This document shows positions 21,476-61,101 of a DNA stretch of 64,000 bases, in pieces; within the stretch, counting starts at the first letter, position 1, and every line of letters begins with the position of its first letter. The stretch covers positions 1 to 64,000 of the forward strand of contig JAJHRF010000003.1 of assembly GCA_020832925.1 (NCBI GenBank). The letters are read 5' to 3'. This DNA is from Desulfurococcaceae archaeon (GTDB lineage Archaea > Thermoproteota > Thermoprotei_A > Sulfolobales > Ignisphaeraceae). The notes below the pieces were generated by a model. That model was not told the DNA's origin. It was given only the letters and a program-made list of their open reading frames with translations, and did not search any database. Position numbers and translations under genes: made by a program.

Positions 21476-22567
21476 TCATTCTTCAAAATTATCGAGAGGA
21501 TCTACATAGAGAATAGTAGGGATTTTATAAGGAGAAATCCTCGTCACAGCTATTCCCTGCCCAGAAATTGTCATTGCGTAGTCTATAGCTTTTTTAGAGA
21601 GATTGAGATATCGTTGAAGTTTTTGCCAATAACTTATAGAGGGGGCACTCATAGCCATAAAGAGCCCGCAGCTATTAATAATAGTATCGATGTAGGGATG
21701 TAGATCTTCTACCCCCTGTGTAGCCATAAACATTGCTATCCCCAGACTTCTACTATACCTCGCAAGCATATTCACAAATTCATCTCCTAAAAACGGCAAG
21801 ACATGCCAAAGCTCATCTAAAACTACGACATTTATTGGAATCTGTGTTGTAGATACATTGAATGTTGATAGCATATACTTGAGGATATATGTAACGACTA
21901 AAGCGCTTTCTAATCTATCTCTTACGAATATCTGCTTAAGATTTACAATGGATATCCTTCTCTGTTTCGATGTGTATACACCAAGGAATTCTTCATCAAA
22001 ACTATAGCGGTTAGTATAAACATTAAATAACGTTGTTAACGTACTTGTAGCTTTGCTGATTTCTTTATCGTAAACATCTACTTCGTAATTCCAAATACTA
22101 TCGACATCAAGACAACGGTTACATACGTTAACCAAGATTTTAGCTAGATACTTTCTTGCTTGTGTACTTAGCGTGTAAACTTTAGAAAGACTTTCAATAG
22201 CAATGTTAATCATTTCAAGTTTTTTCGTAGGTTGATCTTCACAGAAACATAGGGGTAGAGGGACTTCTACAGGGTTGAAAATAAGTACTCTATCCGTATA
22301 CATTGAGAATAGATATCTATACTCATCCTTTATATCGAAAATAATAGCATTAACATTGTATGATCTTACAAATCTATGAACAAGAGCTGATAAAGTAACA
22401 GATTTACCACTACCACTAGGACCTATGACAAGTAGATGTGGTGTCGATGATAGTTCCGGATCCCAGTATACGCTACTCCCCGATATAACATCTATACCTA
22501 TGTATGTACCTGTACTGCTATACGATAAAGGTACAACTGCTGTAGGTGGTAGAGAATCTAAAAGCAT
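21476..22567 (-). CDS. HerA/VirB4-type P-loop ATPase (last gene of a three-gene unit)
   Basis: 363 residues. A strand pair typical of the VirB4/HerA start (YIGIDVISGSSVYWDPE) leads to Walker A GPSGSGKS at 49-56. Other features are FDIKDEYRYL (about 77-86), Walker B VVVLDELWH with Asp251-Glu252, and the polar sensor MATQGVEDL (about 281-289). Relatives are hexameric DNA or protein pumps, including archaeal HerA and the DNA-import ATPase CedB. The protein lacks the N-terminal domain of VirB4, which may be supplied by the upstream gene. No NurA nuclease is nearby and no membrane helix is present. Confidence 0.75.
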   Translation of the reverse strand: MLLDSLPPTAVVPLSYSSTGTYIGIDVISGSSVYWDPELSSTPHLLVIGPSGSGKSVTLSALVHRFVRSYNVNAIIFDIKDEYRYLFSMYTDRVLIFNPVEVPLPLCFCEDQPTKKLEMINIAIESLSKVYTLSTQARKYLAKILVNVCNRCLDVDSIWNYEVDVYDKEISKATSTLTTLFNVYTNRYSFDEEFLGVYTSKQRRISIVNLKQIFVRDRLESALVVTYILKYMLSTFNVSTTQIPINVVVLDELWHVLPFLGDEFVNMLARYSRSLGIAMFMATQGVEDLHPYIDTIINSCGLFMAMSAPSISYWQKLQRYLNLSKKAIDYAMTISGQGIAVTRISPYKIPTILYVDPLDNFEE

Positions 22568-22574
22568 TTGCTTT

Positions 22575-23165
22575 CTACGTAGATTTGTTTGTACGAAAAT
22601 TGAGTATAACTCTTGCTAGCATGTCTTCTACTATAGGTTCTAAACTTATGTTTAAGATATTCTTCGCATTTAAAGGTACTCTCTCTATATCCTTTATATT
22701 CACAGTGTTAGGACAGAGCAATGCCACTATACTTACGGTTTTAACAGGTTTAATACCCATTAAAACCTTCTTCCTATTCTCGAGAATTTTTTCGATATGG
22801 GTACGAAGTTTAATGTTTGTCTTATCTACAGATAATTCTACTAATCTCAGCTGTAAGCTCTGATCCAACTTCTTAAGATATTTATCTGTATCTACTAACT
22901 CGATGTCTGTCATCAGTATCTGACGACAGTTCTCGACATAGAGTATCTCTAGGAATTTACGTAGATTGTGTAGGTAATCCAGATATGCTAAATCATGTAT
23001 ACTCAAAGACCAGTTCTTAACCTTATACAACGCAATAATTTCGTCGTTACATAAATGAATACCTGGTTTCACATATCTACATAATGATATACTGTATTCT
23101 TTACCACGATGAGTAACCCTAGTTAGTGTTCTTATTAGAGACTGGGTAAAGGTTTTCATATACAT
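22575..23165 (-). CDS. unknown protein, possible N-terminal half of a split VirB4-like ATPase
   Basis: About 197 residues. The start is uncertain: ATGs at 23213, 23165 and 23159 are all in frame and all overlap the large gene upstream. There are no membrane helices and no catalytic motif. The layout (a strand-rich start with KEYSISLCRYVKPG, a helical middle, then PVKTVSIVALLCP and a final helix) is where a VirB4-type N-terminal domain would sit. The HerA/VirB4 ATPase starts 7 bases later in a different frame, beginning exactly at the strands that normally follow that domain. The split-gene idea is inference. Confidence 0.5.
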   Translation of the reverse strand: MYMKTFTQSLIRTLTRVTHRGKEYSISLCRYVKPGIHLCNDEIIALYKVKNWSLSIHDLAYLDYLHNLRKFLEILYVENCRQILMTDIELVDTDKYLKKLDQSLQLRLVELSVDKTNIKLRTHIEKILENRKKVLMGIKPVKTVSIVALLCPNTVNIKDIERVPLNAKNILNISLEPIVEDMLARVILNFRTNKST

Positions 23166-25485
23166 TGCTAGATACTCTAATATCACTGCTTCTAATCCCC
23201 AACATCTTAGCAACTTTTAAAGCGATATGCATAGCTATGGCTATTACGTTCTCAAAGGTAAGAGGTATTGTACACTGATGCATATAACCAGTAGTTTCAA
23301 AGACTACAATTTGAAGCCCGTAATCGCTTAAGATGTGCTGCCAATCAACATTGATACTCACCTCCTTTACTCTTAAAGGCTCAACAGGTAAAACACTATT
23401 TTCAATTACTACAGAACCCCATACTTTTCGGCAACGATTAGAGATCTTGAGGAAGATCTTAGATTCAGAAACGTTAAAATACGTATCCTGTATTTCTACA
23501 CATTTTCTAGGTAACATAACTTCATAAATTCCGCGATTATACATAATATAAGGTTCAGCAATATCGTCTTTAAATACCACCCTTGGTTTACAAAAGTTGT
23601 ATACAGGCATAGATATATATTTTCCATCAATTTCCAGAATAAGCTTAAGAAGTTTACTACATTTACTAAGATCTATGCATATACCTTTAGCTAAAATGTT
23701 ATTACATATAGCAATTAAGGAAATGTTGCTTAAATTAATATTGTTTTTCTCAAGCATATCCTTATTCAAGCATATCTGGTCTTGGTGAAGCCGTAGGAGT
23801 TCATCTATTTTTAGTTTAATAATGTCCATTTTATCTAGGTACACTCCCCATTCCAAGTTACCGATAGTCTTTACTAGATATAAGCTAGGATGTACATAAG
23901 TGTTGATATCTATTCTAGAGTAGTCATCAGGTATATACTTCAGAACTAGGTTGTGATCAACAATTTCAGGTTTGCTTAAAATTATATGCTTATCATTAAC
24001 TTGGAGAACCTTAACAACGTCAAAATTTTTAGGTAATTCTACGAGAACTCTGTAAAGCCTAGGTTTCAACTTGATATTAGGTATCAAAATATCCTCTATA
24101 TCTACTTCCTCCGATTTTAATAAGAATTGACTAGCTCTTATCTTAATCAGCGATTTTTCGTATACAGGGTTTATCATTAACGGCGTGAACTCACCAAATA
24201 TATACAAATTGAATCCAGAGACGCTGTTCAGAACTTTAATTCTTGGTACTAAGTCTAAAAGTTTTTCAATATTAAACATTGTTATACGCCCTAGCCTATC
24301 TATACATAAAACTATATCATCTTCTAAAGAAGTGCAATCAGCAAAATACCTAGGTAAGGTTGCAAACTTCTCTATGTATAGACGTGACGATCCTATATCG
24401 ATATAATACACATCAACGCCATCTTTCTTAAGAATTACAAGTTTATCCTTTGCTAAAGTCACAGAATCAACATCGTTAGCAACAATTCTAACATATGCAT
24501 GTGTACTGTCTACATTATAGATATCAAGATGGTTATTAGTGATTATAGCAATACGACTGTGATTAGGATCTACGAAAAACTTTACAACATCTTGATGTGA
24601 GTATCTATTTAAAACAGTTGAACTATTATTCTCGGTATTTACTAAGATCAACAAGTTGTTAGAGTTTAAGGCAAGAACACGTTCTTCATCTATAAAAGCT
24701 AGAGGATCAGCATCTTCTATTTTGTAGTAGCTATCCATGTCATAACGATATTCTAAGTTAAATACAAAACCTCTTCTTCCAAATTTTATAAAGTAAACAT
24801 TGTTTTTTGTATATCCATAGATTCTAGAAGTATTTATTTGTAATAAATAGGGTTCTAAATTTAGTTTAGCACTAAATCCGTATACACGACTACTAACAGC
24901 GGTAAAAATATCATTGTTTACACATACGGATGTAGTGAACGATTCATATGTACCTGTACAATATTTTCGACAACGATGAAGTTCTTCAACAGATATACCT
25001 GTATCTACCAACACTATTCTCCCAAGAACACCATTGTTGCTTAAGAATAGAACATGGTTATGTTGAGGATGCACCGTCTTAGCATATAATTCGTAGTTCA
25101 CTAAGTCTATAACCTCTAAAGCTTTATGAGGTACAACTTTGTAAAGCTTTAGCAACTTACCCATAACATTGTCGATAGATAGTATAGAGAATGGGTTCAA
25201 TGTGAAGTAATTGCAGGTATAGCATAGTTCATCTATAAGATTCTGATCAAAGTTCTCTAAGGCTATAGAGTAAGTGGTGAGCGTTCCGTTGTCCTCAGCC
25301 TTAATAAAAGGGGTTAAACCTATATCTAATTCCTTACTTTGCTTTGTGTAAACTATACGAGGATATATTAAGAGCTTGGGATTGACTAACTCTATGAAGA
25401 CCTTATCTTTGGTCCTAATAGTTCTGATCTTGGTGTGCAAATCTATAATAGGCTTTCTTAACTCTAAGATTATTGAGTGTTTCAA
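23119..25485 (-). CDS. large beta-propeller-like protein of unknown function
   Basis: 788 residues, first gene of the unit with the HerA-type ATPase. Residues about 140-430 show repeated short beta strands ending in hydrophobic-polar pairs (HNHVLFLSNNGVLGRIVLVD, ERVLALNSNNLLILVNTE, NHSRIAIITNNHLDIYNVD, DKLVILKKDGVDVYYID), as in WD40/PQQ propellers. The second half is also beta-rich with scattered Cys. There is no signal peptide, no transmembrane helix and no enzyme motif. The end overlaps the small gene by about 47 bases. I do not recognise the family. A scaffold or target-recognition role with the ATPase is inferred. Confidence 0.6.
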   Translation of the reverse strand: MKHSIILELRKPIIDLHTKIRTIRTKDKVFIELVNPKLLIYPRIVYTKQSKELDIGLTPFIKAEDNGTLTTYSIALENFDQNLIDELCYTCNYFTLNPFSILSIDNVMGKLLKLYKVVPHKALEVIDLVNYELYAKTVHPQHNHVLFLSNNGVLGRIVLVDTGISVEELHRCRKYCTGTYESFTTSVCVNNDIFTAVSSRVYGFSAKLNLEPYLLQINTSRIYGYTKNNVYFIKFGRRGFVFNLEYRYDMDSYYKIEDADPLAFIDEERVLALNSNNLLILVNTENNSSTVLNRYSHQDVVKFFVDPNHSRIAIITNNHLDIYNVDSTHAYVRIVANDVDSVTLAKDKLVILKKDGVDVYYIDIGSSRLYIEKFATLPRYFADCTSLEDDIVLCIDRLGRITMFNIEKLLDLVPRIKVLNSVSGFNLYIFGEFTPLMINPVYEKSLIKIRASQFLLKSEEVDIEDILIPNIKLKPRLYRVLVELPKNFDVVKVLQVNDKHIILSKPEIVDHNLVLKYIPDDYSRIDINTYVHPSLYLVKTIGNLEWGVYLDKMDIIKLKIDELLRLHQDQICLNKDMLEKNNINLSNISLIAICNNILAKGICIDLSKCSKLLKLILEIDGKYISMPVYNFCKPRVVFKDDIAEPYIMYNRGIYEVMLPRKCVEIQDTYFNVSESKIFLKISNRCRKVWGSVVIENSVLPVEPLRVKEVSINVDWQHILSDYGLQIVVFETTGYMHQCTIPLTFENVIAIAMHIALKVAKMLGIRSSDIRVSSNVYENLYPVSNKNTN

Positions 25486-25575
25486 CCCCCTAAAATACTT
25501 AGCTAAGTATATAAAGCGTCTTAATTCTTTTATGTGGTTCTTAACTAAAATAGTTTCTAGGGAATGATATAGACT

Positions 25576-25929
25576 TTGGTGTTGATCTTGAATTCGCGAG
25601 AAAAACTACTAAAGATTTTATCCTCTCTCAAGAATAGAATAGCATCTCCTAGCGATATAATTGCTGTAACAGGGCTTCCTCGATATGAAGTTTTAGCAGC
25701 TTTTCATATACTAGAAGCTCTTGATTTTATCGAGCCTGTATACGTTCGTGGAAACTACAAGTTGTATAGATTAACAATTGAGGGAGAGAAAGTTGTGGAT
25801 ACATTAAGTAGTGGTAAAAAGATTAGAATTGAAGTGGAATTAGATAGAAATACAGAAAAAGCTGTTCAAATAGAAGCTCTTACCACTAATGTTGCCGATA
25901 ACGGGAAAGCAGTGTCGGAAGCATCCTAG
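25576..25929 (+). CDS. winged-helix DNA-binding protein
   Basis: 117 residues from TTG 25576, or GTG 25579 one codon later. The first 75 residues form a winged helix (LLKILSSLKNRIASPSDIIA, then EVLAAFHILEALDFIEPVYV and the wing GNYKLYRLTIEGEK). The tail is acidic and low in hydrophobics. It stands divergent from the propeller/ATPase unit with only about 90 bases between, so it may regulate that unit. It resembles small archaeal MarR/ArsR-like regulators, but no ligand site can be seen. Confidence 0.6.
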   Translation: MVLILNSREKLLKILSSLKNRIASPSDIIAVTGLPRYEVLAAFHILEALDFIEPVYVRGNYKLYRLTIEGEKVVDTLSSGKKIRIEVELDRNTEKAVQIEALTTNVADNGKAVSEAS

Positions 25930-46029: not shown

Positions 46030-48246
46030 TTATGGAGATAGGAAATCTTCAGCTCTTGGTGGTTCAGGCTTTAAACCTTTTCTTTGACGTATTTTTCTTA
46101 CAAGATCCGGTAATAGTGATTCTGGAACAGGCATCCATCCAGCAAATTCCGTACCCCAGAAGGCTCTCCCTGCACTAGCACCTCTTAATTCGTTAGCTAA
46201 ATCTATAGATTCGCTTACAGGGATTTCGCATAAAACTTTCACTATGTTTCCAGCCATATGAAGTACATTAAGTATTTTCCCTCTTCTTCTGGTTATTACA
46301 GATGATATAGGTCCTAAGTAATCTATAGGTACTTTTATTTCAAGTTTCTGGATAGGCTCTAATAATGTTGGTCTAGACATTAGCATGCCGGCGAATATAG
46401 GATTCCTAACAGCAGGATATATTTGAGCTGGACCTCTATGAGCTGGATCCTCATGAATAACAGCATCGTGCAGTACAACTTTCAATCCTCGTACAGGTTC
46501 AGCAGCTAGCGGACCCTCTCTCATTGCAATTCTGAAGCCTTGGATAATAGTATCCTTAACCTCTCTGAGATACTGTATACCTGATGTTAAATCGATGAAC
46601 ACATTTATGTTTTCATCTATAGCCCATATCCTCCTAGCTTCATCATAATCCCAACCAGCTTCATCTCTTAAGATTTTGGCTCGTTTATACGGATCCATAT
46701 CTTCCGTAATTATACCTTGTTGTATTAACTTTACGGTTTCCTCATTTAGAGGTTCAACACTTATATATAGTTTGTTATGCTTATTTGGAGACTTTCCTTC
46801 GATAACAGGGCTTTTAGCTCTGATCGTTTCTCTGTATACTACAGTAGGAGGTGAAGTTTCAACCTCTAACCCAAACCTCTCCTTGAGTAACGTTAGTACT
46901 ATCTCAAGGTGTAAATGACCCATACCAGATATTAAGTACTCACCTGTTTCCTCATTAATCTTAACAATTAGATTGGGATCTTCAATACTCATTTTCTTTA
47001 AAGCATCGATAAGTTTTGTTAAATCTGTTGTTTTCTTAGGTATGACAGCCATGGTTACAACAGGTTCTGATACATATCTAAGTCTCTCGAAAGGTGTTAT
47101 AGAGTCCTTGAGTTTAGGATCAATAACAGTTTCACCAGCTCTTGCTAGGTCAGGACCTAATACTGCTGCTACATTTCCTGCAAGTATACGATCTACAACT
47201 TCTCTGTATGGACCCATGTATAGACCTACTTGTAATACTTTCTGTGTTGTACGTGCATTAACCAGATATACCTCCTGCCCGCTGAAGACTGTACCTGAAA
47301 ATACTCTACCAGTTGCTACAAACCCTGCATGGGGATCCCATCTCATATCGCATACAAAGAATACTAAAGGACCATCAGGATCCGCCTCCATTAACGCCTT
47401 ACCTATATCGGTGTTGATGTCTCCTCTCCATATTTTCGGAATTCTATATCTTTGAGCTTCCCTGGGATTCGGTATAAATTTTACAACCATATCAAGTAAA
47501 GCTTCATGTAACGGTATTTTCTTCTTTAACTCCTCTAAAGCTTGTTTATCACCAGAGCGGTATACCTCAATTATATCATCGATTTTGACACCCTTCTTTC
47601 TACTCATAGGGACCGTTAACCCTATGGCATCTTTAGCGCAACCGAATGCAACCATCCCTTGTGCAGGGTCAAGTAGCCATTTCTTCCTAAATTCTGGTTC
47701 AGCATATGTTTCGATAAGTGAATTAACTTCTCTTATTATCTCTATAAATCTCTGTTTTATTTCGTCAGAACCCATACGCAGTTCTTTGATAAGCCTATCG
47801 ATTTTGTTTATGAATAGGAGAGGTCTAACTCTTTCTTCTAAAGCTTGTCTTAGTACTGTTTCTGTCTGGGTCATAACGCCTTCAACAGCGTCTACTACAA
47901 CAATAGCGCCATCTATCATTCTTAAACTTCTAGTTACTTTTCCGGTAAAATCTACATGTCCTGGTGTATCAACTAGATTTATTACATAAGGTTTTCCTTC
48001 GTATTCGTGGTACAGACTAATATTGGCTGCTTTAACGGTCATTTGGCGTTTTTGTTCTATGTCTAAGAAATCCATAGCTAATACTTGGCCTGCTAATCTT
48101 GGTGAAATTATTCCTGCAGCCGCTAGTAAGCTATCGGTTGTAGTAGTTTTTCCGTGGTCTACATGAGCTATTATACCTACGTTTCTTATTTGCTCTATGT
48201 TACTCATGATTTTAAGTACTTGTTCAACTGTTTTAACGTACCTCAT
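46030..48246 (-). CDS. fusA: translation elongation factor 2
   Basis: 738 residues, full length. Motifs: G1 AHVDHGKTT (about 27-35), G3 DTPGHVDF, G4 NKIDR, and domains II-V. The diphthamide loop region [20 protein letters not shown] carries the modified His, and the C-terminal [20 protein letters not shown] end is typical. The ATG at 48246 gives the usual crenarchaeal start ([13 protein letters not shown]). It moves tRNA and mRNA through the ribosome with GTP. It is downstream of the XPF-type gene, 43 bases away on the same strand, with its own possible promoter. Confidence 0.97.
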
Positions 48247-48289
48247 TGTAGTACCTACCTTATCTACAACCTTTATTCTTTAGAGTTTA

Positions 48290-49048
48290 TTAATCTTGAT
48301 GATTATTAGATGGGGGCAAATCCGCTTTTTGCTTTTTATCCGCCGATACGTAATCTAGAATGTTTTTCTGTACATCTGTTGTATAGGCTGAACTTGTTTT
48401 CGAAGAATATCTATACACAGCATGAATTATTTGATAGATTTCGGCTGCTTTTTGTTCTGTTAAACCCTCTATACGTGTAAGTTCATATAGAGATGCATTA
48501 CAGAAGGCATGTATAGATCCAAAATGTTCCAGTATTCTCTGTGTTATCTTGGGACCTATGTGAGGAAAACACTGAAGTATAAATTTCTGCCACTCCACTA
48601 TGTTATTCGCCTTGGGTTTCCTAGGTGTGGAGGTCGTAGGAATAGTGTGCGGTTTATAGTAGCTTAACCTTTTTATCAATTCAGCAGTTTCTTCCTCATT
48701 TCTGGTGTAAAGGATAGCGACACCCAGATCCAATGTTATAGTTATATACGATCCCCAGACAGCGTTTTTATGAATTTTCCTCTCTTTCAATGCTTTATAG
48801 ATATTTCCTTCAATAATTAGAACAACTTTATCGTACCTCTCCTTCAACTTACTTAACTGGGTGAAAAGTCTTCCATCAATTATAGAGTTAAGGTAATCAT
48901 TAGCTGTTTTCCGCTCAATACCAAGCACATTATCTATAACGTAATCCCCTACATCAAGCATTTTGAAGAGAATTGTAACACCTTTTGCTGCAAGGTATTG
49001 AGGAACCTTCGAATTCTTTTCACGTTCGTCAACATAAACAACGGTTAT
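48290..49048 (-). CDS. xpf: XPF/Mus81-type structure-specific endonuclease without canonical start codon
   Basis: The ATG at 48961 would give 223 residues but cut off the conserved N-terminus. Upstream, the same frame reads VVYVDEREKNSKVPQYLAAK and GVTILFKMLDVGDYV, which is the normal XPF nuclease start with its Asp-Glu-Arg-Glu motif; the second motif IERKTANDYLNSI follows. The frame begins right after TAA 49049-49051 and offers only ATA (49048) or GTT codons as starts. The C-terminal half has tandem helix-hairpin-helix motifs (FPHIGPKITQRILEHFGSIH). The protein acts on branched DNA, normally with PCNA. Confidence 0.75.
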   Translation of the reverse strand: MTVVYVDEREKNSKVPQYLAAKGVTILFKMLDVGDYVIDNVLGIERKTANDYLNSIIDGRLFTQLSKLKERYDKVVLIIEGNIYKALKERKIHKNAVWGSYITITLDLGVAILYTRNEEETAELIKRLSYYKPHTIPTTSTPRKPKANNIVEWQKFILQCFPHIGPKITQRILEHFGSIHAFCNASLYELTRIEGLTEQKAAEIYQIIHAVYRYSSKTSSAYTTDVQKNILDYVSADKKQKADLPPSNNHQD

Positions 49049-49053
49049 TTATA

Positions 49054-50187
49054 TCACCCTTCAAGTACTTTTTCCTCTTCCAACTCAACAATCTTACCTT
49101 TTACTAAGTTACTTAAGATCTTTAAGAGTTCTGCCAATACAATATTCACGTCAGACACATTTATAATAGCTCCACCAGCACTTTTATGTCCACCGCCGCC
49201 GCCACCGTATTTCTGTATCAATTGTTTCAAAATATCGTTATATATGTCGATACCTCGAAATATTTCGGGATCTTCACGTGTTCTATATATAACTCGGGTT
49301 GCGTGTAGAGATTCTTCCTCGGAAACAACGAAAGCTATATCGTAACCAACACTAATCATCGCAGATGCACACTCAGATTCATAAGCACCTACTTCTGAAA
49401 ACCCTATGTAAATATCATGGTCATTTAAAGTAACTTTAAAACCTCTATGCCTAAGAATACATTTTATCTTAGCTATCTTAGCATGTGGAGGTCTTGACAC
49501 TGTTATAAGGCGTTTCGCGTTTTGGTAATCAGCTCCAAGCTCTAAAATTTCTGATACACATCTAAAAGCTGAAGACGTACCTCGTGCAAAATGACCTGTA
49601 TCCCATAGTATTCCTGTAATCAAAATTTCTAAAAACTCTTTAGGAATAGAAATAGAGAACCTCTTTACTATATCGAAGATTATTTCAGAAGTAGAAGAAA
49701 CGTCGAAGCGGATCAGTAATAACATACTTTCAGCTGATACAGATGTATATTCATGGAAAGCGTGATGATCTATTACGACGATTTTGTTACATTGATTGAT
49801 ATAATTCTTGAGACTCTTTATCTGTTCAATGGAAGCTACATCAATCAAAATACATAACGAATTCTCTTTGAATATATTGGAAACAACTCTTTTTATTACG
49901 GTAATGTTGACGTTGTTTTTTGAACAAATTTCTAAAATTTTTCTACACTCTAAACCAATACCTTCAGGTACTATTACATTAACTTCAAGACCTTCTTTTA
50001 ATTTTTGAATTAGGTAAGCTATAATACAAGAAGAAGCTAAAGCATCGGGATCAGCATTTGCATGAGGAATTATGATAATATTGTTAGAACTTAGTATTAG
50101 TTTCCTCAGTTTTTCTAAATTTTGAAGCCAAGTACTGTCTAGCTCTTTCAAACACATGTCGTAACACCTGATCAAGTATTTTTTCAA
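49054..50187 (-). CDS. DHH-DHHA1 family phosphoesterase (RecJ/Cdc45-like)
   Basis: 377 residues at most; the start is uncertain because the first about 35 codons overlap the DUF3194 gene. ATG 50157 (Met11) is a likely alternative. DHH motifs: PHANADPDALAS (about 41-52), LIDVAS (about 115) and VIDHHAFH (about 139). GILWDTGHFARG provides a further Asp, and the DHHA1 end is KYGGGGGGHKSAGGAI. Archaeal relatives include the GINS-associated nuclease and oligonucleotide phosphatases; this one is not assigned. It follows DUF3194 and prefoldin beta, a conserved order. Confidence 0.82.
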   Translation of the reverse strand: MKKYLIRCYDMCLKELDSTWLQNLEKLRKLILSSNNIIIIPHANADPDALASSCIIAYLIQKLKEGLEVNVIVPEGIGLECRKILEICSKNNVNITVIKRVVSNIFKENSLCILIDVASIEQIKSLKNYINQCNKIVVIDHHAFHEYTSVSAESMLLLIRFDVSSTSEIIFDIVKRFSISIPKEFLEILITGILWDTGHFARGTSSAFRCVSEILELGADYQNAKRLITVSRPPHAKIAKIKCILRHRGFKVTLNDHDIYIGFSEVGAYESECASAMISVGYDIAFVVSEEESLHATRVIYRTREDPEIFRGIDIYNDILKQLIQKYGGGGGGHKSAGGAIINVSDVNIVLAELLKILSNLVKGKIVELEEEKVLEG

Positions 50188-50437
50188 GGCTGATCTGCGG
50201 CGTTATGTATGAGTCTACCTCTAGGTTTATAGCTATCTTAATAATGTCATTGTTTATCTCTATACTTATAGTAGATACATAGCCTATCACCTTTTCACTT
50301 AATAGCTTACCAATTTCATCTTTAATACATTGTTCTAAAAACTGGGCTATCTCTTCTAAATCTTTATCACTAATATTCTTTAAATCAAGACCTATTTCCT
50401 CAACATCAACAGTTTTCGATTTTATATTTCGAGCCAT
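50084..50437 (-). CDS. DUF3194 family protein
   Basis: 117 residues. Helix, then strands (SEKVIGYVSTISIEINNDII), then a long helix (ISLEKILDQVLRHVFERARQ): a small alpha-beta fold known from the uncharacterised archaeal DUF3194 proteins that lie beside prefoldin beta. The family identification depends mainly on this position between prefoldin beta and the DHH gene. The end overlaps the start of the DHH frame by about 100 bases unless the DHH start is later. The start is ATG. Confidence 0.7.
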   Translation of the reverse strand: MARNIKSKTVDVEEIGLDLKNISDKDLEEIAQFLEQCIKDEIGKLLSEKVIGYVSTISIEINNDIIKIAINLEVDSYITPQISLEKILDQVLRHVFERARQYLASKFRKTEETNTKF

Positions 50438-50567
50438 ATCTATTCAGTGTTCTCTGTCTATGTTTTCACATATATAAAATATAATAGAAGTGAAACATAT
50501 TTTGTAATTTACATATCTTTATTTTCAAAATACAATGGTAATTGTATTGCATCCCTTAAGCACTATG

Positions 50568-50927
50568 TTAAGATTTCTTATAGGTTAATGATATATATTC
50601 GCTTAGCTTACTTTGTATTTCTGATAATTGTTGTCGTAGTAGGGATTCTTGCCTAGATAAAGTCTTCAACCTTAGTTCGAGAAGCTCTTTTCTTTCATTA
50701 AGCTCCTTCTCTGCTGTTTCTTTATTGATCTTGATTAGAAGATGTCCTGAAGCTCTGTATATTTCTGCATCATTCGGAACGTTCTTTAATACCTCTAAAG
50801 CTCTATTGATCTCCCTTAACTCTTGTTCTAATACGCTTTTCTCAGCTATTAACTGATTTAATTGAGCTTGTATTTGTTGATATCTTATAGCTTGTTGTTG
50901 GATTTCAGGTGGAACTCTTTCTGCCAT
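50568..50927 (-). CDS. pfdB: prefoldin beta subunit
   Basis: 119 residues from ATG 50927, preceded by GGGTG; the in-frame TTG at 50939 is less likely. Two long amphipathic helices (about 5-45 and 75-115) flank a beta-hairpin region (ALEVLKNVPNDAEIYRASGH, LLIKINKETAEKEL), which is the prefoldin beta pattern. The subunit joins alpha in a hexameric jellyfish-shaped holdase that passes unfolded proteins to the thermosome. Confidence 0.92.
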   Translation of the reverse strand: MAERVPPEIQQQAIRYQQIQAQLNQLIAEKSVLEQELREINRALEVLKNVPNDAEIYRASGHLLIKINKETAEKELNERKELLELRLKTLSRQESLLRQQLSEIQSKLSEYISLTYKKS

Positions 50928-50988
50928 ACAAACACCCAAAACATATTGTTATAAGTTTAAGATTATTAAGTATCTATGAATTTTATTC

Positions 50989-51306
50989 TCATGTTATAGG
51001 TATTAGGTTTTCACCATTTTTAAGCTCTATAAACTTACGTAGGACGTTGATAGTGGTTACCGAGGTATTTACTAAGTACAAGATCGAGTTAATGATAGCT
51101 CTTAGCTGAGATAGCGAAGAAGTAGATATTGATATAACGATGCAACTTCTTGCGACGTCTATGTCTAAGATAATGTTTGTCCTCTTACTATCTATAGGCA
51201 TCACTATTTCAGGGCGTATACTTTCAAGAACTATATCGAAATTTTCGGCTTCAAGATGTGTAAAGCATATTTTCACACAGCTTTTGTATATATTTTCGCT
51301 TTGCAT
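50989..51306 (-). CDS. pcc1: KEOPS complex subunit Pcc1
   Basis: 105 residues. The core ESIRPEIVMPIDSKRTNIIL, followed by CIVISISTSSLSQLRAIINS and ILYLVNTS, matches Pcc1, whose ESLxPE...R and SLRAxxNS motifs are characteristic. Pcc1 dimerises in the KEOPS complex that makes the t6A modification of ANN-decoding tRNAs. The start overlaps the end of the Brix gene by 34 bases, as expected for this conserved L37Ae-Brix-Pcc1-prefoldin run. Confidence 0.85.
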   Translation of the reverse strand: MQSENIYKSCVKICFTHLEAENFDIVLESIRPEIVMPIDSKRTNIILDIDVARSCIVISISTSSLSQLRAIINSILYLVNTSVTTINVLRKFIELKNGENLIPIT

Positions 51307-51872
51307 ATTCTTATCACAGGTCCCACAATTTCGTTCTTGAAATTCTTAAATATTATTTCGTATAAGGGTATCGTTATAGGATGTTTTTCCTTAAAGTATT
51401 TCCTTACATCAATCAAAATCGGCATTTGGAGAGACTTCAGGTTTATTTCGGGTACTTCGTCGCATACCTTTATATTAAAGCTCCTTAACAAACATTCGGC
51501 CACTTCTTCATTATCGATTAAAGCTAATGCAGAGCTTAATATTAATAGCTGGTTTGGTTTCGATTTAGGATTTATCTTGGGTTGGGTTTTACGAATAGAA
51601 AAGCTACATATATATAGTGTGCAAAGCTTAATTAAAGTCTTATTTATGGGATCTACTAGATATGTGTCTAGGTAGCCAGGATTTCCTTTCCTATTCCTAA
51701 CAACTATTACTTTATCTACATTGAAATCTATTGCCTGTAGAATTAATAAAGATAATGTGAGTTTACCTCGTCTTTGATACCGAGCGTTAGGGATGATAGG
51801 TACTAGATGCTTTATAAATCTACGAACAACAGGTGTAGGTCTTCGGCTAGTAGTTATAATAATCTTGCTCAT
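51273..51872 (-). CDS. Brix-domain ribosome-biogenesis protein
   Basis: 199 residues from ATG 51872 (an ATG one codon earlier is equally possible). The start (KIIITTSRRPTPVVRRFIKH, then IPNARYQRRGKLTLSLLILQ) is typical of archaeal Brix/IMP4-like proteins. The next part, VIVVRNRKGNPGYLDTYLVD, also fits, and the rest alternates strands and helices. Such proteins chaperone rRNA in ribosome assembly. It lies 15 bases after L37Ae and overlaps pcc1. The small RNA polymerase subunit RpoP, which often sits between L37Ae and Brix in archaea, is not present here. Confidence 0.85.
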   Translation of the reverse strand: MSKIIITTSRRPTPVVRRFIKHLVPIIPNARYQRRGKLTLSLLILQAIDFNVDKVIVVRNRKGNPGYLDTYLVDPINKTLIKLCTLYICSFSIRKTQPKINPKSKPNQLLILSSALALIDNEEVAECLLRSFNIKVCDEVPEINLKSLQMPILIDVRKYFKEKHPITIPLYEIIFKNFKNEIVGPVIRICKAKIYTKAV

Positions 51873-51887
51873 CACAAAGGGTTTACC

Positions 51888-52118
51888 TTATTTTTTCAGA
51901 GTCCATGGTGTGTATGCGGCACCCGCCCATTTAGCACCACACTTAGGACATTGCCAAATACCGAAAGCTATTCTCTTGAAAACCACGATATTTGAGCAGT
52001 ATGGGCATTGATATACAGCATAACGTCGTTCCATAACTTCTTTCCACTTCTTTCTAAGGCTAGAACCATATCTAGCTCCGAACCTTCCAGCTATTCCTAC
52101 AACTCTGGTTCTTCCCAT
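51888..52118 (-). CDS. rpl37ae: 50S ribosomal protein L37Ae
   Basis: 76 residues from ATG 52118 (GRTRVVGIAGRFGARYGSSL); the upstream in-frame ATG at 52127 adds three residues. The zinc ribbon QCPYCSNIVVFKRIAFGIWQ ending in CPKCGAKWAGAAYTPW has both CxxC pairs intact. It binds 23S rRNA. It is part of the exosome superoperon, about 80 bases after rrp42 and just before the Brix gene. Confidence 0.93.
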   Translation of the reverse strand: MGRTRVVGIAGRFGARYGSSLRKKWKEVMERRYAVYQCPYCSNIVVFKRIAFGIWQCPKCGAKWAGAAYTPWTLKK

Positions 52119-52199
52119 GAGCCTCACCTTATTTTATTAATACTTTTAACGAGATTACTAACTATGCTGTATATGTATTGACTAGGACAGTTTTAAAAA

Positions 52200-53045
52200 T
52201 TAACTTGAACTCCTAGATTTTTTTAGAATCGTTATCAGCTCTTCAGCCTTTGACATACTTAAACTTATGATTTCGTCCAACTCTTTTTCCGTTAAAGCAC
52301 CTAAACCCATTTTTTGCAATCCCACGATTCTTTTCTCTTCGTCTATTGATACAGCGATTCTGTGTTGAGCTAAGGATTCTTCTTCTGCTGTAGGATCTAT
52401 TACAAGAACATCGCCGATCTTATACGTTGTTACTGTAACTACATATTTATTGATAGGTAGAGGGCTTACTTTTTGATCCTTGTTCACTTTAACTATCCCT
52501 GTATGTTGATCAACGATTTCGAAGTAAGGTATATACGTATTGGATAGAGCAGCCATAGAGGCTAGCATAGATGCATCTACAATGTTACCGTCATAGTCCA
52601 GAATGTATATATCGAGCCATACAATCCACACCTTCTTACCCGGGATTATACATAGCTTATCTAATGGTATAGCCTTGGACTCTCTTATAGATCTGTCAAT
52701 AATTCGGGCAAGCTCTATGGCATTTTCATCTGGAGGTCCTGGCTCAAATGTTGGAGAGGCTGCAGGTATGTATTCAGCATTCACTACGATAGCTCCCTCA
52801 TCTGGTGTATCGGGGTAAGGCTGTCCTACTTCTAATTTAACACCTGCTAAAATCTGTGTATTACCTAAACGTACTAGTGCTGAACCTTCTGCTTTAGGTG
52901 CTACACCGTACACTATTTCTATTGGTCTATAGCTTGTTACAGGTCTTTTATCTATGTGATAGCCTCTTGATATGATATTCAGTATGGCATTATATTTTAT
53001 ACGTGGTATTAGTGGTTGTTCCATCGTTTTAGACAATCTGTTCAC
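52200..53045 (-). CDS. rrp42: exosome complex subunit Rrp42
   Basis: 281 residues, RNase PH fold. Motifs: [40 protein letters not shown], and [18 protein letters not shown]. The GRxDGR-type catalytic residues of Rrp41 are replaced, as expected for the non-catalytic partner. Rrp41 and Rrp42 form the hexameric ring that degrades RNA from the 3' end with phosphate. The start overlaps the end of rrp41 by 17 bases, implying coupled translation. Confidence 0.95.
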
Positions 53046-53763
53046 CTACCTCTACATACTTTTTACGAAGAGCCTCCTTTTGAAGTTCATATATCTGCTT
53101 TATACCTTTCATAGCTAAGGCTAGTGCTTGTTTGAATTCTTGAGGAGTTAAAACACCGTTGAGCTGTATCATTGTGATTTTATTTAAGCTTGGCATGGCT
53201 GCAACAGGCATATCTGCTTCTCCATACATATCCTCTATCTCGTTGATATCTAAAACCAAAACACCGTCAACCTTACCTACAGCCACACTAGCAACTAAGT
53301 CCAACATAGGTATACCTGCATCGGCTAACGCTAAAGCTGCCGCTGTTATGCCTGCTGTTCTAGTGCCACCATCAGCATTTATTACTTCAACAAAGATATC
53401 TATTGCTGTTCGAGGGTATTGATGAGATAATATGGCGGGTTCCAGAGCTTCTCTAATTACTTTTGATAACTCTATTTCCCTTCTACTTGGAGCAGGGCTT
53501 TTCCTCTCTGAGGTTGAAAATGATAACATTCTGTATCTACATCTTATGACAGCTCGATCTGGAAGCTCTTCGTATCTTGGCACTACCTCTCTAGGTCCGT
53601 AAACAGCTGCTATAACCTTGGTATTCCCGTATTCTACGTAAGCTGAACCATCAGCATTCTTAAGTATTCCAACATCAATTTTTATCGATCTTAATTCGTC
53701 TGGTAATCTATTGTCAATTCTTCTACCATTTTCATTTATAAGCTTAGGTTTACCCTGTTTCAT
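53029..53763 (-). CDS. rrp41: exosome complex exonuclease subunit Rrp41
   Basis: 244 residues, the catalytic RNase PH-type subunit. Motifs: [59 protein letters not shown], and [20 protein letters not shown] with the phosphate-binding and acidic residues. [19 protein letters not shown] completes the active site. The start overlaps rrp4 by 14 bases and the end overlaps rrp42. The start is ATG at 53763. Confidence 0.96.
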
Positions 53764-54508
53764 GTTTGATCAACCCCCTCTTAACTTTCTCTTCTATAAT
53801 AAAAGACCTGATCCTCTCAGTTAGACCTAGAGTATGTGATTCACGTTCAATTTTCTTTATCGCAAGTACAGCTATGTATTCGTATTCTGGGTTCGGACAT
53901 CGAAGAATTATTCTACCATTAATTCCGACTATAATTTTACACTGAGTTAGCTCTTCCAGCATAGTTATCATTGAACGTTTTCTACCTATAACTCTAGGTA
54001 CCTTGGATGGGTCTAGTTCTATCAAAGATCCATCTACAACTTTACCTAAATCTTTATCTTGAGTTGTTAATACAGGATTTCTAGTTCGATCGAATTGTAC
54101 AACTTTTGCTAAAATAACGTCACCTACGTCTAGGTATTTCCTTATATTCTCTGTAGCGGGGTTGAAAGGTCTACCTAAATAATCAGATGCATTCAGAATA
54201 GCGTAGTAAGGAGAATTAATGTCTATAATCCATGAGGTTACAGAGACATCTCTAACTATACCTACAACGATATCTCCTTCCTTAGGTATGTACTTAAACT
54301 TTAGTGGTATTAATCTATACCTTATCTTATCCCCGATTTCCTCGATATCTAGTAACGATATCACAGTCACAATGTTTACATCTTTGTCTTTGTAAAGATA
54401 ACCGTATGGATCCGCTATTTCACCTGAAGATGGTGGTGTCACTATATCTCCTGGTAATGTTATTATTCTCTTCAATATGTTCGGTGTAGTAGAATTAGAT
54501 TTGCTCAT
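53750..54508 (-). CDS. rrp4: exosome complex RNA-binding subunit Rrp4
   Basis: 252 residues in the usual three-part layout. The N-terminal domain (about 10-70) has [20 protein letters not shown]. The S1 domain (about 78-155) includes [20 protein letters not shown] and [20 protein letters not shown]. The KH domain (about 160-235) includes [15 protein letters not shown] and [13 protein letters not shown]. Rrp4 caps the Rrp41/Rrp42 ring and guides substrate RNA. The start overlaps the SBDS gene by 14 bases. Confidence 0.95.
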
Positions 54509-55199
54509 AGGTTAATACCTTAATGTTTGCATTACCTTTCGTCATCTTATTTATTTGCTCTATAACTTCATTTTGTATCCCCGCAGGAATTTCTAGCTCA
54601 ATTACGAGAGCCCCATCATTAGTCCAAACATTTTTCCTAACTTCGCCTAGCTTCATTATTTGCGATGCTACTTTATGTGCATAACCAGGGGGTATAGTGA
54701 TTCCGAGCAGGACTTTTGCTAATCTTATCGGTATGATTTTTGAGATGGCTTTGACAATTGCGGGTACCTGCTCCTCTACAGATTTATGTATATCGATAGC
54801 AACTTTCGCTTCCTCAATGGCTTTCTCAATTAATGTTGGGGGTATAGGTGTTTTTGTTCTAGGATCTATAGCTGACCTAGATATATGGTACACTATTTGT
54901 TTTTTCTTGGTTTCTAAAAGCTGTCTTCGCTGATCAGCTGTGAGTTGTAGTTCCCCTTCTCTTAAAATTATTTCGCAAATTTTGGCGATATCTGTCGTCC
55001 TAAATACCTGTTCTAACTCTTCTGGCGATGCTTTCAATCCTTTTTTTGCATCTTTATACACGAACTCCCCTATTACTACATCTTGTATAGGTATCTTTTT
55101 TCCTTCCTTAAAAGCAAAAGCTTTATCAGGATCAACAAGAATTTCAAATTTCTTACCTTTTACATTAAGACGTGCGATAACATATTCTTTTTTACTCAA
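54495..55199 (-). CDS. sbds: SBDS-family ribosome maturation protein
   Basis: 234 residues. The N-terminal FYSH domain (about 1-90) reads [20 protein letters not shown] and [20 protein letters not shown], then [20 protein letters not shown]. The helical middle reads [31 protein letters not shown], and the C-terminal ferredoxin-like domain follows (about 165-232). It helps release an anti-association factor from the large ribosomal subunit. The start overlaps the psmA stop (ATGA). Neighbours are the normal psmA-SBDS-rrp4 order. Confidence 0.95.
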
Positions 55200-55930
55200 G
55201 AAGTAACCCCCGCTTTTTCTAAGTACATTTTAATTTCTTCTACCGACAATTTTCTGAAGATTCTCGTACTTTTATCCACAAAACCTATCTCAACCCTCTC
55301 TACAGTAAGTGGTTCTCCGAGAGATGCTCTTAGAGCTCTTAAACCTAATATAATTAGCTCTTCTGTACTTAATTTGAAATTGTAATATTTCTCAATATAG
55401 CTTAAAGCTGCTTGCTCTCCTGATCCAGCTACTGTTGCATAGTATTTGAAGTAGAGTCCGCTAGGTTCGGTCTTTATCAGCTCTACTTTACCATCTTTAT
55501 CAATGCCTCCGAAGATTATTGACACTCCAAAAGGTCTTACACCACCTTGTTGTGTATAAAGCTGTTTTATATCACATATTGTTCTAGCAAGTAGTTCCAC
55601 ATCTATTTCTTCATCGAATGTAAGTCTATGTCTTACAGCTATCAACCTTGCATAGTCTATCAAAACCCTGCCATCATGGCCAAGCCCTGAGAATGTTGCT
55701 CCCATGTGCGTGTCTATTGTAAAGACTTTCTCAAGACTAATAACATCATGTAATGGTGCAACTTTTCTTCTTTCAGCTATCAATACAACTCCATTCTCAG
55801 ATTTTAGTCCTAATGAAGTCCAGCCACGTCTAACAGCTTCAGCTGCATACTCTACTTGATAAAGTTTACCATCAGGTGAAAATATTGTTAAAGCTCTATC
55901 GTAACCCATGGCCGCAGGCATGAACGACAT
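55196..55930 (-). CDS. psmA: proteasome alpha subunit
   Basis: 244 residues from ATG 55930, which follows GGTGA by 5 bases. The listed longer frames to 55978 add residues (VRTEKCMRIKPR) not found in the family. Typical start: [32 protein letters not shown], the gate-forming region. YSLLRPFGVS-like [20 protein letters not shown] and [20 protein letters not shown] follow. Seven subunits form the outer rings of the 20S proteasome. It is the first well-supported gene of the superoperon. Confidence 0.95.
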
Positions 55931-55946
55931 TATCATCACCCTAGGC

Positions 55947-56081
55947 TTAATTCTCATGCATTTCTCTGTTCTTACCACAGTTTTCGGTATCCAAATTAAG
56001 CTTAAGAACTTTGTTGAGCTTGTACTTTAACCCAATACTACGTGGTTTTAAGAGTTCAAGCAATTGAATAGCAGACCTCAT
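55947..56081 (-). CDS. possible 44-residue protein upstream of psmA
   Basis: ATG 56081 opens a frame reading MRSAIQLLELLKPRSIGLKY, then KLNKVLKLNLDTENCGKN, ending at TAA 55947-55949, just before the psmA start. The frame is open and plausible for a further 15 codons upstream (GYSPTLHKLVVTIK) to TAG, but without a canonical start there. No ribosome site stands out. It might be a real small gene at the head of the operon, or the end of a decayed gene. Confidence 0.3.
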   Translation of the reverse strand: MRSAIQLLELLKPRSIGLKYKLNKVLKLNLDTENCGKNREMHEN

Positions 56082-56325
56082 CTTTATTGTAACTACAAGC
56101 TTGTGTAAGGTCGGTGAGTAGCCCTATTTAATCACTGATATCATTTTGTGTTGAGGGGTTCGTCATCTATCTTTTTGAATAGTGAAGAGGATGTTACAAC
56201 CTTTAGGTTTTATCATGATATTTTTGGATTACAAGACTTTAATCTATGAAGTTAACCGAAAGTTTTTCTCGGGTTCGTAGTGTTTTTAAACTAGGTAAGA
56301 GAATAGATATTCGAGGAGCTGCATC
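56082..56325. other. AT-rich spacer between psmA and cdc6; candidate replication origin
   Basis: No gene fits. The spacer beside cdc6/orc1 is AT-rich and contains GGGTTCGT twice in the same orientation (56156-56163 and 56271-56278), once within GAGGGGTTCGTCAT. G-runs followed by T are a feature of crenarchaeal origin boxes, but I see no full match to the known Sulfolobus box. The location beside cdc6 and a cluster of replication genes makes an origin possible; this is inference. The cdc6 promoter must also lie here, and TTTTTAAAC (about 56283) is a candidate. Confidence 0.35.
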
Positions 56326-57564
56326 ATGGTAAGCAATGAAGCTATAGTTAGCGTATTTAAGAAGCCTAGTGTTTTCAAGAATATAGAAACGCTTTATCCA
56401 GAGTATGTACCTTTAAAACTTCCACATAGAGAAAATCAATTGAAGCAATTAGCAGAAATATTCAGACCGTTGATTTTGTCTCCGGGGAATGTCTTCATCA
56501 GGGTTATGATGGTTGGAGGTGTAGGTGTGGGCAAGACTGCTACAGCGAAAGTTTTTGGTAAAGAAATAAAGCTAATTGCAGCGGAGCATGGATTAGATCT
56601 ACGTTATGTTCACATTAACTGTCATCGTGATAGAACTTTGTATGAAGTTGTCTCAGAGGTAGTTAGACAGGTAGGAGCTCCTATACCAATAAGAGGGTTA
56701 TCTGCTAGAGAGATGCTGCTAGCTCTCTTGAACTATTTAGAGAAACATAACATATTCACCATAGTAACTTTAGATGAATTCAATTACTTTATTGCTACAG
56801 AAGGAAATGATGCCGTTTACTTCTTAATAAGGATATACGACGAATATTCCGATGTAAAGAAGAGAATTAGCTACATCTTCATATCGCGCAATATATCAGC
56901 TCTTAATATGTTGGACCCTACTACAGAAAGCTACATCTTAAGGCATACGATACGTTTTGATCCCTATACCTCAGATGAATTATTCGACATACTTAGGTAT
57001 AGAAGAGATCTAGCTTTTTACGAAGGGACTGTAGATGACGATATTTTAAGGTATATAGCAGAGCATAAAGGTGTTAATAAAGGTGGTGACGGCAATGCTA
57101 GATCAGCTCTTGAAGCATTATTATTAGCAGGTCAAGCAGCTGACTATGAAGGTTCACAGAAAGTAAAGATAGAACATGTTAGAAAAGCTTTAGGATTGGT
57201 TCATCCAGACATAGTTAGAATTTCTGATGACTTAAGTTATTTACAATTGCATGAACTTATACTACTAAAAGCTATTATCAGGAGTTTAAAGAATAGAGAA
57301 GTGCATTTCGTGAAAATAGGGGATGTCGAGGAAGAATACAGATATTTATGTCAGTTTTATAACGTTAAACCTAGAAGTCATACCCAAATATATGAGTATG
57401 TCAATAACTTAAAATATATGGGGATCATCGAAGCTAGGGTATCAGGTAAAGGATTTCGAGGTAGAACAACATTGATATCAATCTCGGTTCCTTTAGAAGA
57501 GTTGGAGAGAAAAGTTGATGAGTTAATATCTCTTAAGCGAGGAATGACGAAGAATATCACGTAA
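56326..57564 (+). CDS. cdc6: Cdc6/Orc1 replication initiator
   Basis: 412 residues. AAA+ motifs: Walker A GGVGVGKT (about 64-71), Walker B VTLDEFNYF, and sensor region YIFISRNIS. The lid helices include DPYTSDELFDILRYRRDLAF. The C-terminal winged helix (about 310-395) has EVHFVKIGDVEEEYRYLCQF and YVNNLKYMGIIEARVSGKGF. It binds origin DNA and helps load MCM. It starts with ATG after a GAGGAGCTG site. It is close to RFC, GINS and MCM genes, a dense replication neighbourhood. Confidence 0.94.
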   Translation: MVSNEAIVSVFKKPSVFKNIETLYPEYVPLKLPHRENQLKQLAEIFRPLILSPGNVFIRVMMVGGVGVGKTATAKVFGKEIKLIAAEHGLDLRYVHINCHRDRTLYEVVSEVVRQVGAPIPIRGLSAREMLLALLNYLEKHNIFTIVTLDEFNYFIATEGNDAVYFLIRIYDEYSDVKKRISYIFISRNISALNMLDPTTESYILRHTIRFDPYTSDELFDILRYRRDLAFYEGTVDDDILRYIAEHKGVNKGGDGNARSALEALLLAGQAADYEGSQKVKIEHVRKALGLVHPDIVRISDDLSYLQLHELILLKAIIRSLKNREVHFVKIGDVEEEYRYLCQFYNVKPRSHTQIYEYVNNLKYMGIIEARVSGKGFRGRTTLISISVPLEELERKVDELISLKRGMTKNIT

Positions 57565-57653
57565 GGTGATACATGTTATAGTGAGTACTTTACTTATTAC
57601 AAATAATGAAATAATGTGGCGTTATATAAACCTCACTATATGATGGGTCAAAC

Positions 57654-57983
57654 ATGAAACTATATCTTGATGAATTCGAACATTATAATAACATTAAGAG
57701 GTTAGCCTCAATTATAAGTAAACCTTGTATATGGTCTATAATATCGATACTTAATGAGTCTACAGATAAAACATTAAATATTACTGCATTAACATCAAAG
57801 TTAAATAGTAACTACCGAGCAGTTTCTAGGTGTATAGAATATATGAAGAAGTTGAATATCGTAGAGGAAATAGTCATAGGAAGGCTTAGGTTGATTAAGC
57901 TTTTGGATACTCGATTAGCTCAAGCTATGGATAAAGTTCTAAACGAATTAAAATACAATTCAGATCTATTTTTTAACAAATGA
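57654..57983 (+). CDS. winged-helix (ArsR-like) DNA-binding protein
   Basis: 109 residues. A single winged helix: ASIISKPCIWSIISILNEST, then ALTSKLNSNYRAVSRCIEYM as recognition helix region, and VEEIVIGRLRLIKLLDTRLA for wing and dimer helix. It resembles archaeal ArsR/HTH_20-type regulators. No metal-binding Cys pair is seen. It sits downstream of cdc6 on the same strand (89 bases apart), and its last 18 bases overlap the end of the convergent RFC large-subunit gene. Confidence 0.65.
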   Translation: MKLYLDEFEHYNNIKRLASIISKPCIWSIISILNESTDKTLNITALTSKLNSNYRAVSRCIEYMKKLNIVEEIVIGRLRLIKLLDTRLAQAMDKVLNELKYNSDLFFNK

Positions 57984-59375
57984 TAGAAGAGATTTCGAAC
58001 TTTTTTCCTCCTTCTTATGTGTTTCACTGGAACTTCTTTGTGTTTCATGGGCGGGGATCTTCTCCTTCTCTTCTACAGCTTGTTGATATAAATATTTCTT
58101 CAGCTGTTTATAGTATTCCAATACTTGATTTTTATTGGGACCTGCAAGTAATTCGACCATTTTCTCTGAAAGTCCAAGCCATAGCGCAATTCTTGCAGCG
58201 ATCTGAGGATTGCTGGTAAAGATAGCTCGTAATATTGGGATGACATCGCTTTTTGCTGCAGATGAAGAGATATGAAGTTTTGTGGAGATGAGTTTCGCTA
58301 TATCATCGAATACTTCACGTACCTCCTTCAATTTAGATGCTAGTAAGAGTCTCTGAGGAAATGAGTACTTTACCCATCGATACTTATCTTTAGGATTCTT
58401 TTTCGCAGAAAAAGCGACACCGACAGTCATCATATCTATTGCGTAAGCTAGAAGATCCCAATCACCTGTCTTAACTATTCTACCTAAATATACATCAGCT
58501 TTGCTTAATGCGTCATAAGCTCGAGAGAGATCCTCTAGATCTCGGTATTGATAAGCAATATTTTCTTCTAGCCATAGTTTAAACTGTTCATAGTCAAGTT
58601 GTGATTGGTTCAGTACAGACTTTGCTTGCCATGCATAGTTGGCTGAAAATAACATTCGTAAGGTTTCGAAAGGATCATGAGATTTATCACGAGGCCTAAG
58701 TAAGATCTTAGCTTCAGCTAATGTTGCTTTAGAACGTCCCTCATATAACACCTCTAAATCATTTATTGCAGCACGTAAATCTCCTTCAGATCTCTCTATT
58801 ATGTAGTTCAAAACATCATCATCACACTTCAGACCTTCGTTTGCACAGATTCTTCGTAGGATAAGCAGTATCTCATCTTTAGTTAATTTCTTGAATTGAA
58901 TCATTTCACATACTTCTCTAAGTGGTCGTAATTTTGGATCCCACGGATCGTTTGCAGCCATTATTATAGGTACAGACGATGTTTTTATCAGTTTTATTAT
59001 AGCTTCTATCCCTCCAGCATCTTCCTTTGTAGCGATACCATCTACTTCATCTAGAAATATAATTTTCTTAGCGGAATGTTGCGAGGTTAAAGACCTCGTT
59101 ACAGAAGCTCTCATCACGCTACGTTCGATATCTTCACGTCTTCTGCTATCACTAGCATTCAACTCGATTAATTCATATCCAAGTTCGTTGGCTACTGCCT
59201 CGACAAGAGATGATTTTCCAACACCTGGCGGACCATATAGTAGAAGCGCTCTCTTCTCCACATTGGGCCATTTTTTTAACCATTCCAATATACGTTGTTT
59301 TGCTTGTTCCTGATCTACGACATCGCTTATTTTCTTAGGTCTATACTTTATTGTCCACGGTATTTTCTTCTCCAT
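57966..59375 (-). CDS. rfcL: replication factor C large subunit
   Basis: 469 residues. Start IPWTIKYRPKKISDVVDQEQ, Walker A GPPGVGKS (about 48-55), Walker B IIFLDEVDG, sensor IIMAANDPWDP, arginine-containing RSEGDLRAAINDLE. A helical collar and a Lys/Glu-rich tail follow, ending in SLLSFVKK, which resembles a PCNA-interacting motif. With four small subunits it loads PCNA on primed DNA. It follows the small-subunit gene by 31 bases on the same strand. Confidence 0.95.
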   Translation of the reverse strand: MEKKIPWTIKYRPKKISDVVDQEQAKQRILEWLKKWPNVEKRALLLYGPPGVGKSSLVEAVANELGYELIELNASDSRRREDIERSVMRASVTRSLTSQHSAKKIIFLDEVDGIATKEDAGGIEAIIKLIKTSSVPIIMAANDPWDPKLRPLREVCEMIQFKKLTKDEILLILRRICANEGLKCDDDVLNYIIERSEGDLRAAINDLEVLYEGRSKATLAEAKILLRPRDKSHDPFETLRMLFSANYAWQAKSVLNQSQLDYEQFKLWLEENIAYQYRDLEDLSRAYDALSKADVYLGRIVKTGDWDLLAYAIDMMTVGVAFSAKKNPKDKYRWVKYSFPQRLLLASKLKEVREVFDDIAKLISTKLHISSSAAKSDVIPILRAIFTSNPQIAARIALWLGLSEKMVELLAGPNKNQVLEYYKQLKKYLYQQAVEEKEKIPAHETQRSSSETHKKEEKSSKSLLSFVKK

Positions 59376-59406
59376 TTATAACGCCCAAAGATCTGTATCA
59401 TCACTG

Positions 59407-60387: not shown

Positions 60388-60560
60388 TCTAATTCACCCC
60401 AAACTCTAATTGTACACATTACGCCTCTAAAGGTAATAATCTTTTAACATGATTGCATAGAGACGTAAATCTGGGTGTGGTTAATGAGTATTTCGACTTC
60501 AACTTTATATAAACTGGCTAGCCTATATAATATTACTGCAGGTAGGGTAGTGACTAAGAA

Positions 60561-61091: not shown

Positions 61092-61101
61092 GGGATAATA
61101 T

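Follow-up and report, generated by a model that had tools for sequence, protein, structure and literature searches.

The two-piece CedB motor

Three overlapping or nearly touching genes for a large protein, a small protein and a HerA/VirB4-type ATPase raise the question of whether they form a machine of their own or belong to one of the known systems. They lie together on the minus strand of the window, the 64,000-nucleotide stretch analyzed here, which comes from the 1.88-Mb genome (101 contigs) of a hot-spring archaeon. Their arrangement, coordinates and motifs are as the first-pass annotation had described them: gene 1 (23119–25485) encodes 788 amino acids from a TTG start, gene 2 (22575–23165) encodes 196 amino acids from an ATG, and gene 3 (21476–22567) encodes 363 amino acids with intact catalytic motifs. 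The mechanical open reading frame of gene 2 is longer (22575–23213, 212 amino acids, TTG start); because relatives align from the ATG at 23165, this codon is most likely the start. Gene 2 shares 47 nt with gene 1 and is separated from gene 3 by 7 nt. At some distance, positions 46030–63171 of the window carry housekeeping genes, among them those for elongation factor 2, an RNase PH-type exosome subunit, SBDS, replication factor C subunits and MCM.

The motifs of gene 3 comprise a Walker A (GPSGSGKS, at residue 49), a Walker B (VVVLDE, 247–252) and an ATQ sensor (282–284). Its best NCBIfam match is CedB (NF041017, E 2.5e-36, model positions 250–575 of 590), and hhalign profile-profile comparison with full-length CedB-like proteins gave an E-value of 1.1e-64. 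In a 42-row tree, gene 3 falls inside a 25-row CedB clade with support of 99/98; the sampled HerA-like, VirB4-like and other CedB-related proteins lie outside it. The CedB score of 125.5 bits lies under the NCBIfam cut-off of 700 bits, and in place of the single protein of about 590 amino acids that the model asks for there is a split gene. A search for membrane helices in the gene 3 protein returned none that was convincing. Homology and tree position identify gene 3 as the CedB motor, a VirB4/HerA-type ATPase, of the crenarchaeal DNA-import system.

The missing part of this motor is encoded next door. The small protein had been described as lacking any motif, with the suggestion that it might be a detached VirB4 N-terminal domain; at the level of profiles a signal is present and bears that suggestion out, since the gene 2 profile aligns with CedB positions 45–197 at a profile-profile probability of 99.2%. 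Gene 2 also matches the N-terminal half of the fused CedB proteins in f2 and f10 (f1 to f11 are the family labels of our genome search; f11, which includes a genome with the ups operon, is taken as Sulfolobaceae). Fused CedB in related families is one protein of 556–599 residues; the split form was found in f1 and f4, and the fused form among the CedB sampled from f2, f3, f9, f10 and f11. From these alignments, we identify gene 2 as the CedB N-terminal domain, encoded as a gene of its own.

Elsewhere in the same genome, away from the unit, we found a CedA-like protein (C11:38170–39531, E 4e-64). Immediately upstream, a weak match to the first helices of this protein may represent a CedA1-like protein. 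The CedA-like profile also matches a Sulfolobaceae protein of 260 aa, and a CedA-like match is present in 18 of the 19 genomes tested, the exception (G012) being an incomplete genome. For S. acidocaldarius, a candidate CedA of 487 aa (L179) was discarded after a poor alignment with the CedA-like proteins. Because the ATPase is CedB and the genome has a CedA gene at another place, the unit is not separate from Ced, and the original view of a module apart from that system has to be given up. DNA transfer had rightly been named as one option; specifically, clade membership and the presence of CedA make DNA import the best reading of the role that the window CedB would serve. A defense module built around a HerA-like ATPase had been another option. 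On the ATPase, PADLOC does report several HerA models as well as mad8 (E 3e-19); however, the CedB model scores far better, genes 1 and 2 have no PADLOC match, and the Pfam-matched neighbors are housekeeping genes in a locus that keeps its L15e-GTPase synteny, so that we regard a defense role as very improbable.

Gene 1 and the UpsX family

What does the large protein contribute to such a motor? Relatives of gene 1 are found in 10/10 same-genus genomes at 22–28% identity, and synteny supplied positional relatives from f2, f4 and the other f1 genera; the same-genus profile recovers those of the other f1 genera with 99.7% probability. Genome-contig scans, with the single protein and then with the alignment, found no relatives, and 47 family members searched against Pfam gave only scattered sub-threshold matches. 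A connection emerged with UpsX, which belongs to the pili that Sulfolobus uses for DNA sharing. From 30 UpsX sequences of Sulfolobaceae, whose anchor protein passes the NCBIfam UpsX model at 1.1e-206, we made a UpsX-only profile and ran it against the gene 1 family, 547 further ORFs and reversed decoys. With self-matches set aside, the ten highest-ranking matches all belong to the gene 1 family (E 8e-13 to 0.13; best decoy 0.24), seven of them at E 2.2e-4 or better, and the alignments are collinear. Likewise, the NCBIfam UpsX model matches 5 of 23 family members (best 5.8e-4), any other family matching at most one, and profile-profile comparison with UpsX gave probabilities of 97% for f4, 96% for the other f1 genera, 81% for f2 and 92–95% for all together. 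These comparisons establish the gene 1 family, which is fast-evolving, as homologous to UpsX at the family level.

For the window's own genus, the profile-profile probability is only 28%. The gene 1 protein itself has no direct match to the UpsX model (NF046072) in the NCBIfam search and reaches E 0.61 under the UpsX profile, that is, it is not individually detected, and its assignment to UpsX therefore rests on family and position. Under the best reading, gene 1 would be a divergent UpsX, a distant relative linked to it via other members of the family.

Gene 1 had been called propeller-like, a description for which we see weak support. A single-sequence model of the whole 788-aa protein is uninformative (pLDDT 33.6). 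The low-confidence model of residues 205–445 (pLDDT 49.7) contains a run of antiparallel strands, and the 50 Foldseek matches listed for it, at TM-scores of 0.25–0.44, are nearly all propeller-containing; internal profile matches are spaced by about 38 columns or double that distance, at weak significance. Among PDB sequences, profile searches yielded no significant match. A propeller-like central region, at about residues 230–410, is plausible from these models. The protein also has an amphipathic C-terminal helix.

Ninety nucleotides from gene 1, a divergent gene on the plus strand (25576–25929) encodes an SSO5209-family winged-helix protein (NF053658, E 1.1e-23, under the curated cut-off). 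The intergenic region that the two genes share (25486–25575) contains, as read from the sequence, a TATA-like CTTTATATA upstream of gene 1; the 100 nt that precede this gene lack the ANTTTC motif of Sulfolobus UV promoters. The winged-helix family adjoins X loci (X denoting the gene 1 family) in f1 and f2, which keeps it, as proposed in the first-pass annotation, a candidate regulator of the unit; at the f4 loci, a single-sequence search did not recover it, and it adjoins the ups operon in 8 of the 14 Sulfolobaceae loci examined.

Conservation of the unit and its pilus connection

The order of large gene, small gene and ATPase gene is kept in 10/10 same-genus genomes and in other genera of the same family, a recurrence that is not due to chance. 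The conserved unit postulated at the outset hence stands: its genes do travel together in relatives, and the large protein did not turn out to belong to an unrelated housekeeping family. At all 24 loci measured (a count that omits G030, whose N-terminal-domain gene has an ambiguous start), the X gene overlaps or abuts the gene for CedB or for its N-terminal domain.

In f2 and f4, X and CedB are part of a longer operon, pilin-E-F-X-CedB, which comprises a pilin with a class-III-type signal, a UpsE-like secretion ATPase (E), a multi-helix membrane protein (F), X and CedB. The same order is seen at X-profile loci outside the profile build, further f2 loci among them (G174, G173, G197, G187 and G193) and at the G190 locus, where the pilin was not called. 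The F protein of the fuller operons matches UpsF with an E-value of 1.2e-18, better than it matches the other pilus platform proteins compared. In the secretion-ATPase tree, E does not group with UpsE, but such a grouping is not rejected either (AU p 0.33). At the window locus pilin, E and F are absent.

These operons invite the alternative that the UpsX-like protein works with the pilus machinery, the adjacency to cedB in f1, f2 and f4 being no more than what is left of an ancestral operon. At the loci examined in Sulfolobaceae, upsX is indeed next to upsE and in the company of upsE/F, with cedB elsewhere, and X lies near E/F at most further loci. However, Ignisphaeraceae loci keep the unit of X, N-terminal domain and ATPase without E, F or pilin alongside, the two Ignisphaera genomes tested besides the window's (G002 and G009) have no close relative of the fuller-operon E, and pili and aggregation are intact in the upsX deletion (PMC3892339), all of which makes a pilus-only partner unlikely in our judgment. 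Instead, the gene order, the overlap and the fact that the unit persists at Ignisphaeraceae loci where no pilus set adjoins it suggest that the constant partner of X is CedB.

Across the order, 75 of 214 genomes gave an X match, compared with 0 of 15 further genomes of the class. The genomes of f1, f2, f4 and f11 that have a tree-placed CedB are among those with an X match, and those of f3, f9 and f10 (G029, G039, G035, G026 and G036) are not. The fork joining the X-bearing side of the CedB tree has only moderate support (87/93), and the co-occurrence of X and CedB is thus suggestive. In the families represented by L090, L091 and L092 (from G026, G036 and G035), CedB adjoins a CedA-like multi-helix protein in place of an X gene. 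Five X homologues in f8/f9 (L257, L260, L261, L264 and L268) have no E, F or CedB match in the neighbor stretch fetched.

A second type of X locus, with X, a VirB4-like ATPase, E, F and pilins, occurs on contig C85 of the window genome and in G056 and G195. The C85 locus (C85:156454–169019; L136:6454–19019) encodes a second UpsX-family protein of 688 aa, together with a VirB4-like ATPase of 635 aa and a multi-helix protein of 176 aa, and this group is divergent from pilin, UpsE-like and UpsF-like genes. Large ATPases of 897 and 812 aa (L263:953–3646 and L266:16566–19001) with a weak CedB match were seen near second-type loci. The company that this second X copy keeps, together with the fact that VirB4 motors usually export, could suggest that the unit drives DNA export or the secretion of other cargo rather than DNA import. 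Yet gene 3 lies in the CedB clade, CedA is present in the genome, and deletion of CedB in Saccharolobus affects import and not export (PMC11868833); we therefore consider export decidedly improbable.

A probable reduced ups-ced locus and its relation to known systems

Taken together, the homologies, the CedB clade, the conservation of the operon and the presence of CedA lead us to favor, with some confidence, the view that the unit is a reduced ups-ced locus, combining a two-piece CedB with a divergent UpsX as its cytosolic partner or adaptor. From this basis we infer the following course. The CedB N-terminal domain and the ATPase, made as two polypeptides, presumably reassemble. Gene 1, which would be cytosolic and translated together with CedB, most likely binds CedB, perhaps via the N-terminal domain encoded by the overlapping gene 2, and would dock the motor at the membrane or regulate it there, next to the CedA channel and, where one is present, a pilus platform. 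A partnership of UpsX with CedB fits the published upsX deletion phenotype, in which pili and aggregation are normal and DNA transfer is down by about half; after UV, part of UpsX moves to the membrane (PMC3892339).

It is tempting to speculate, although we would give this somewhat less than an even chance, that UpsX-family proteins are general adaptors coupling a VirB4/CedB-type motor to a type IV pilus-like platform, and that an ancestral pilin-E-F-X-CedB operon with its winged-helix regulator was later split apart in Sulfolobaceae and pared down to adaptor and two-piece motor in Ignisphaera. UpsX, which has been reported without an identifiable domain or function, gains a specific candidate partner from a conserved unit with an import motor. 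This suggests that the pilus that gathers cells and the motor for DNA uptake are directly linked at the genetic level, and a VirB4-type motor is shown to be encoded in two pieces. We found no report of upsX-cedB linkage or of a split CedB in the open-licence papers searched; an earlier account may exist elsewhere.

Among the known systems, HerA-NurA shares the ATPase superfamily of gene 3; unlike HerA, gene 3 belongs to the CedB clade, from which the sampled HerA-like proteins are separate, and the Pfam-scanned neighbors of the unit belong to families other than NurA. Ted of Thermoproteales resembles the unit in using a VirB4/CedB-like motor for DNA exchange and differs in that the portions of its account consulted here do not describe a UpsX-like gene (PMC9905601). 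The second locus type likewise places the X family beside a VirB4-superfamily motor, but this motor lies outside the CedB clade and is accompanied by E, F and pilins. To Ups (upsX-upsE-upsF-upsA-upsB), the unit is tied by the homology of the gene 1 family to UpsX, by the SSO5209 winged helix beside both and by the full-length match of F from the fuller f2/f4 operons to UpsF; it differs in that the window locus is without pilin, E and F, in that its gene 1 stays below detection by the UpsX model, and in gene order, which is pilin-E-F-X-cedB in the fuller operons of relatives. Finally, whereas the window CedB is encoded in two genes, without a convincing membrane helix and in a unit with a UpsX-like gene, it shares with Ced of Sulfolobus and Saccharolobus (CedB, CedA and CedA1) the CedB-clade ATPase, the CedB N-terminal domain and a CedA-like protein.
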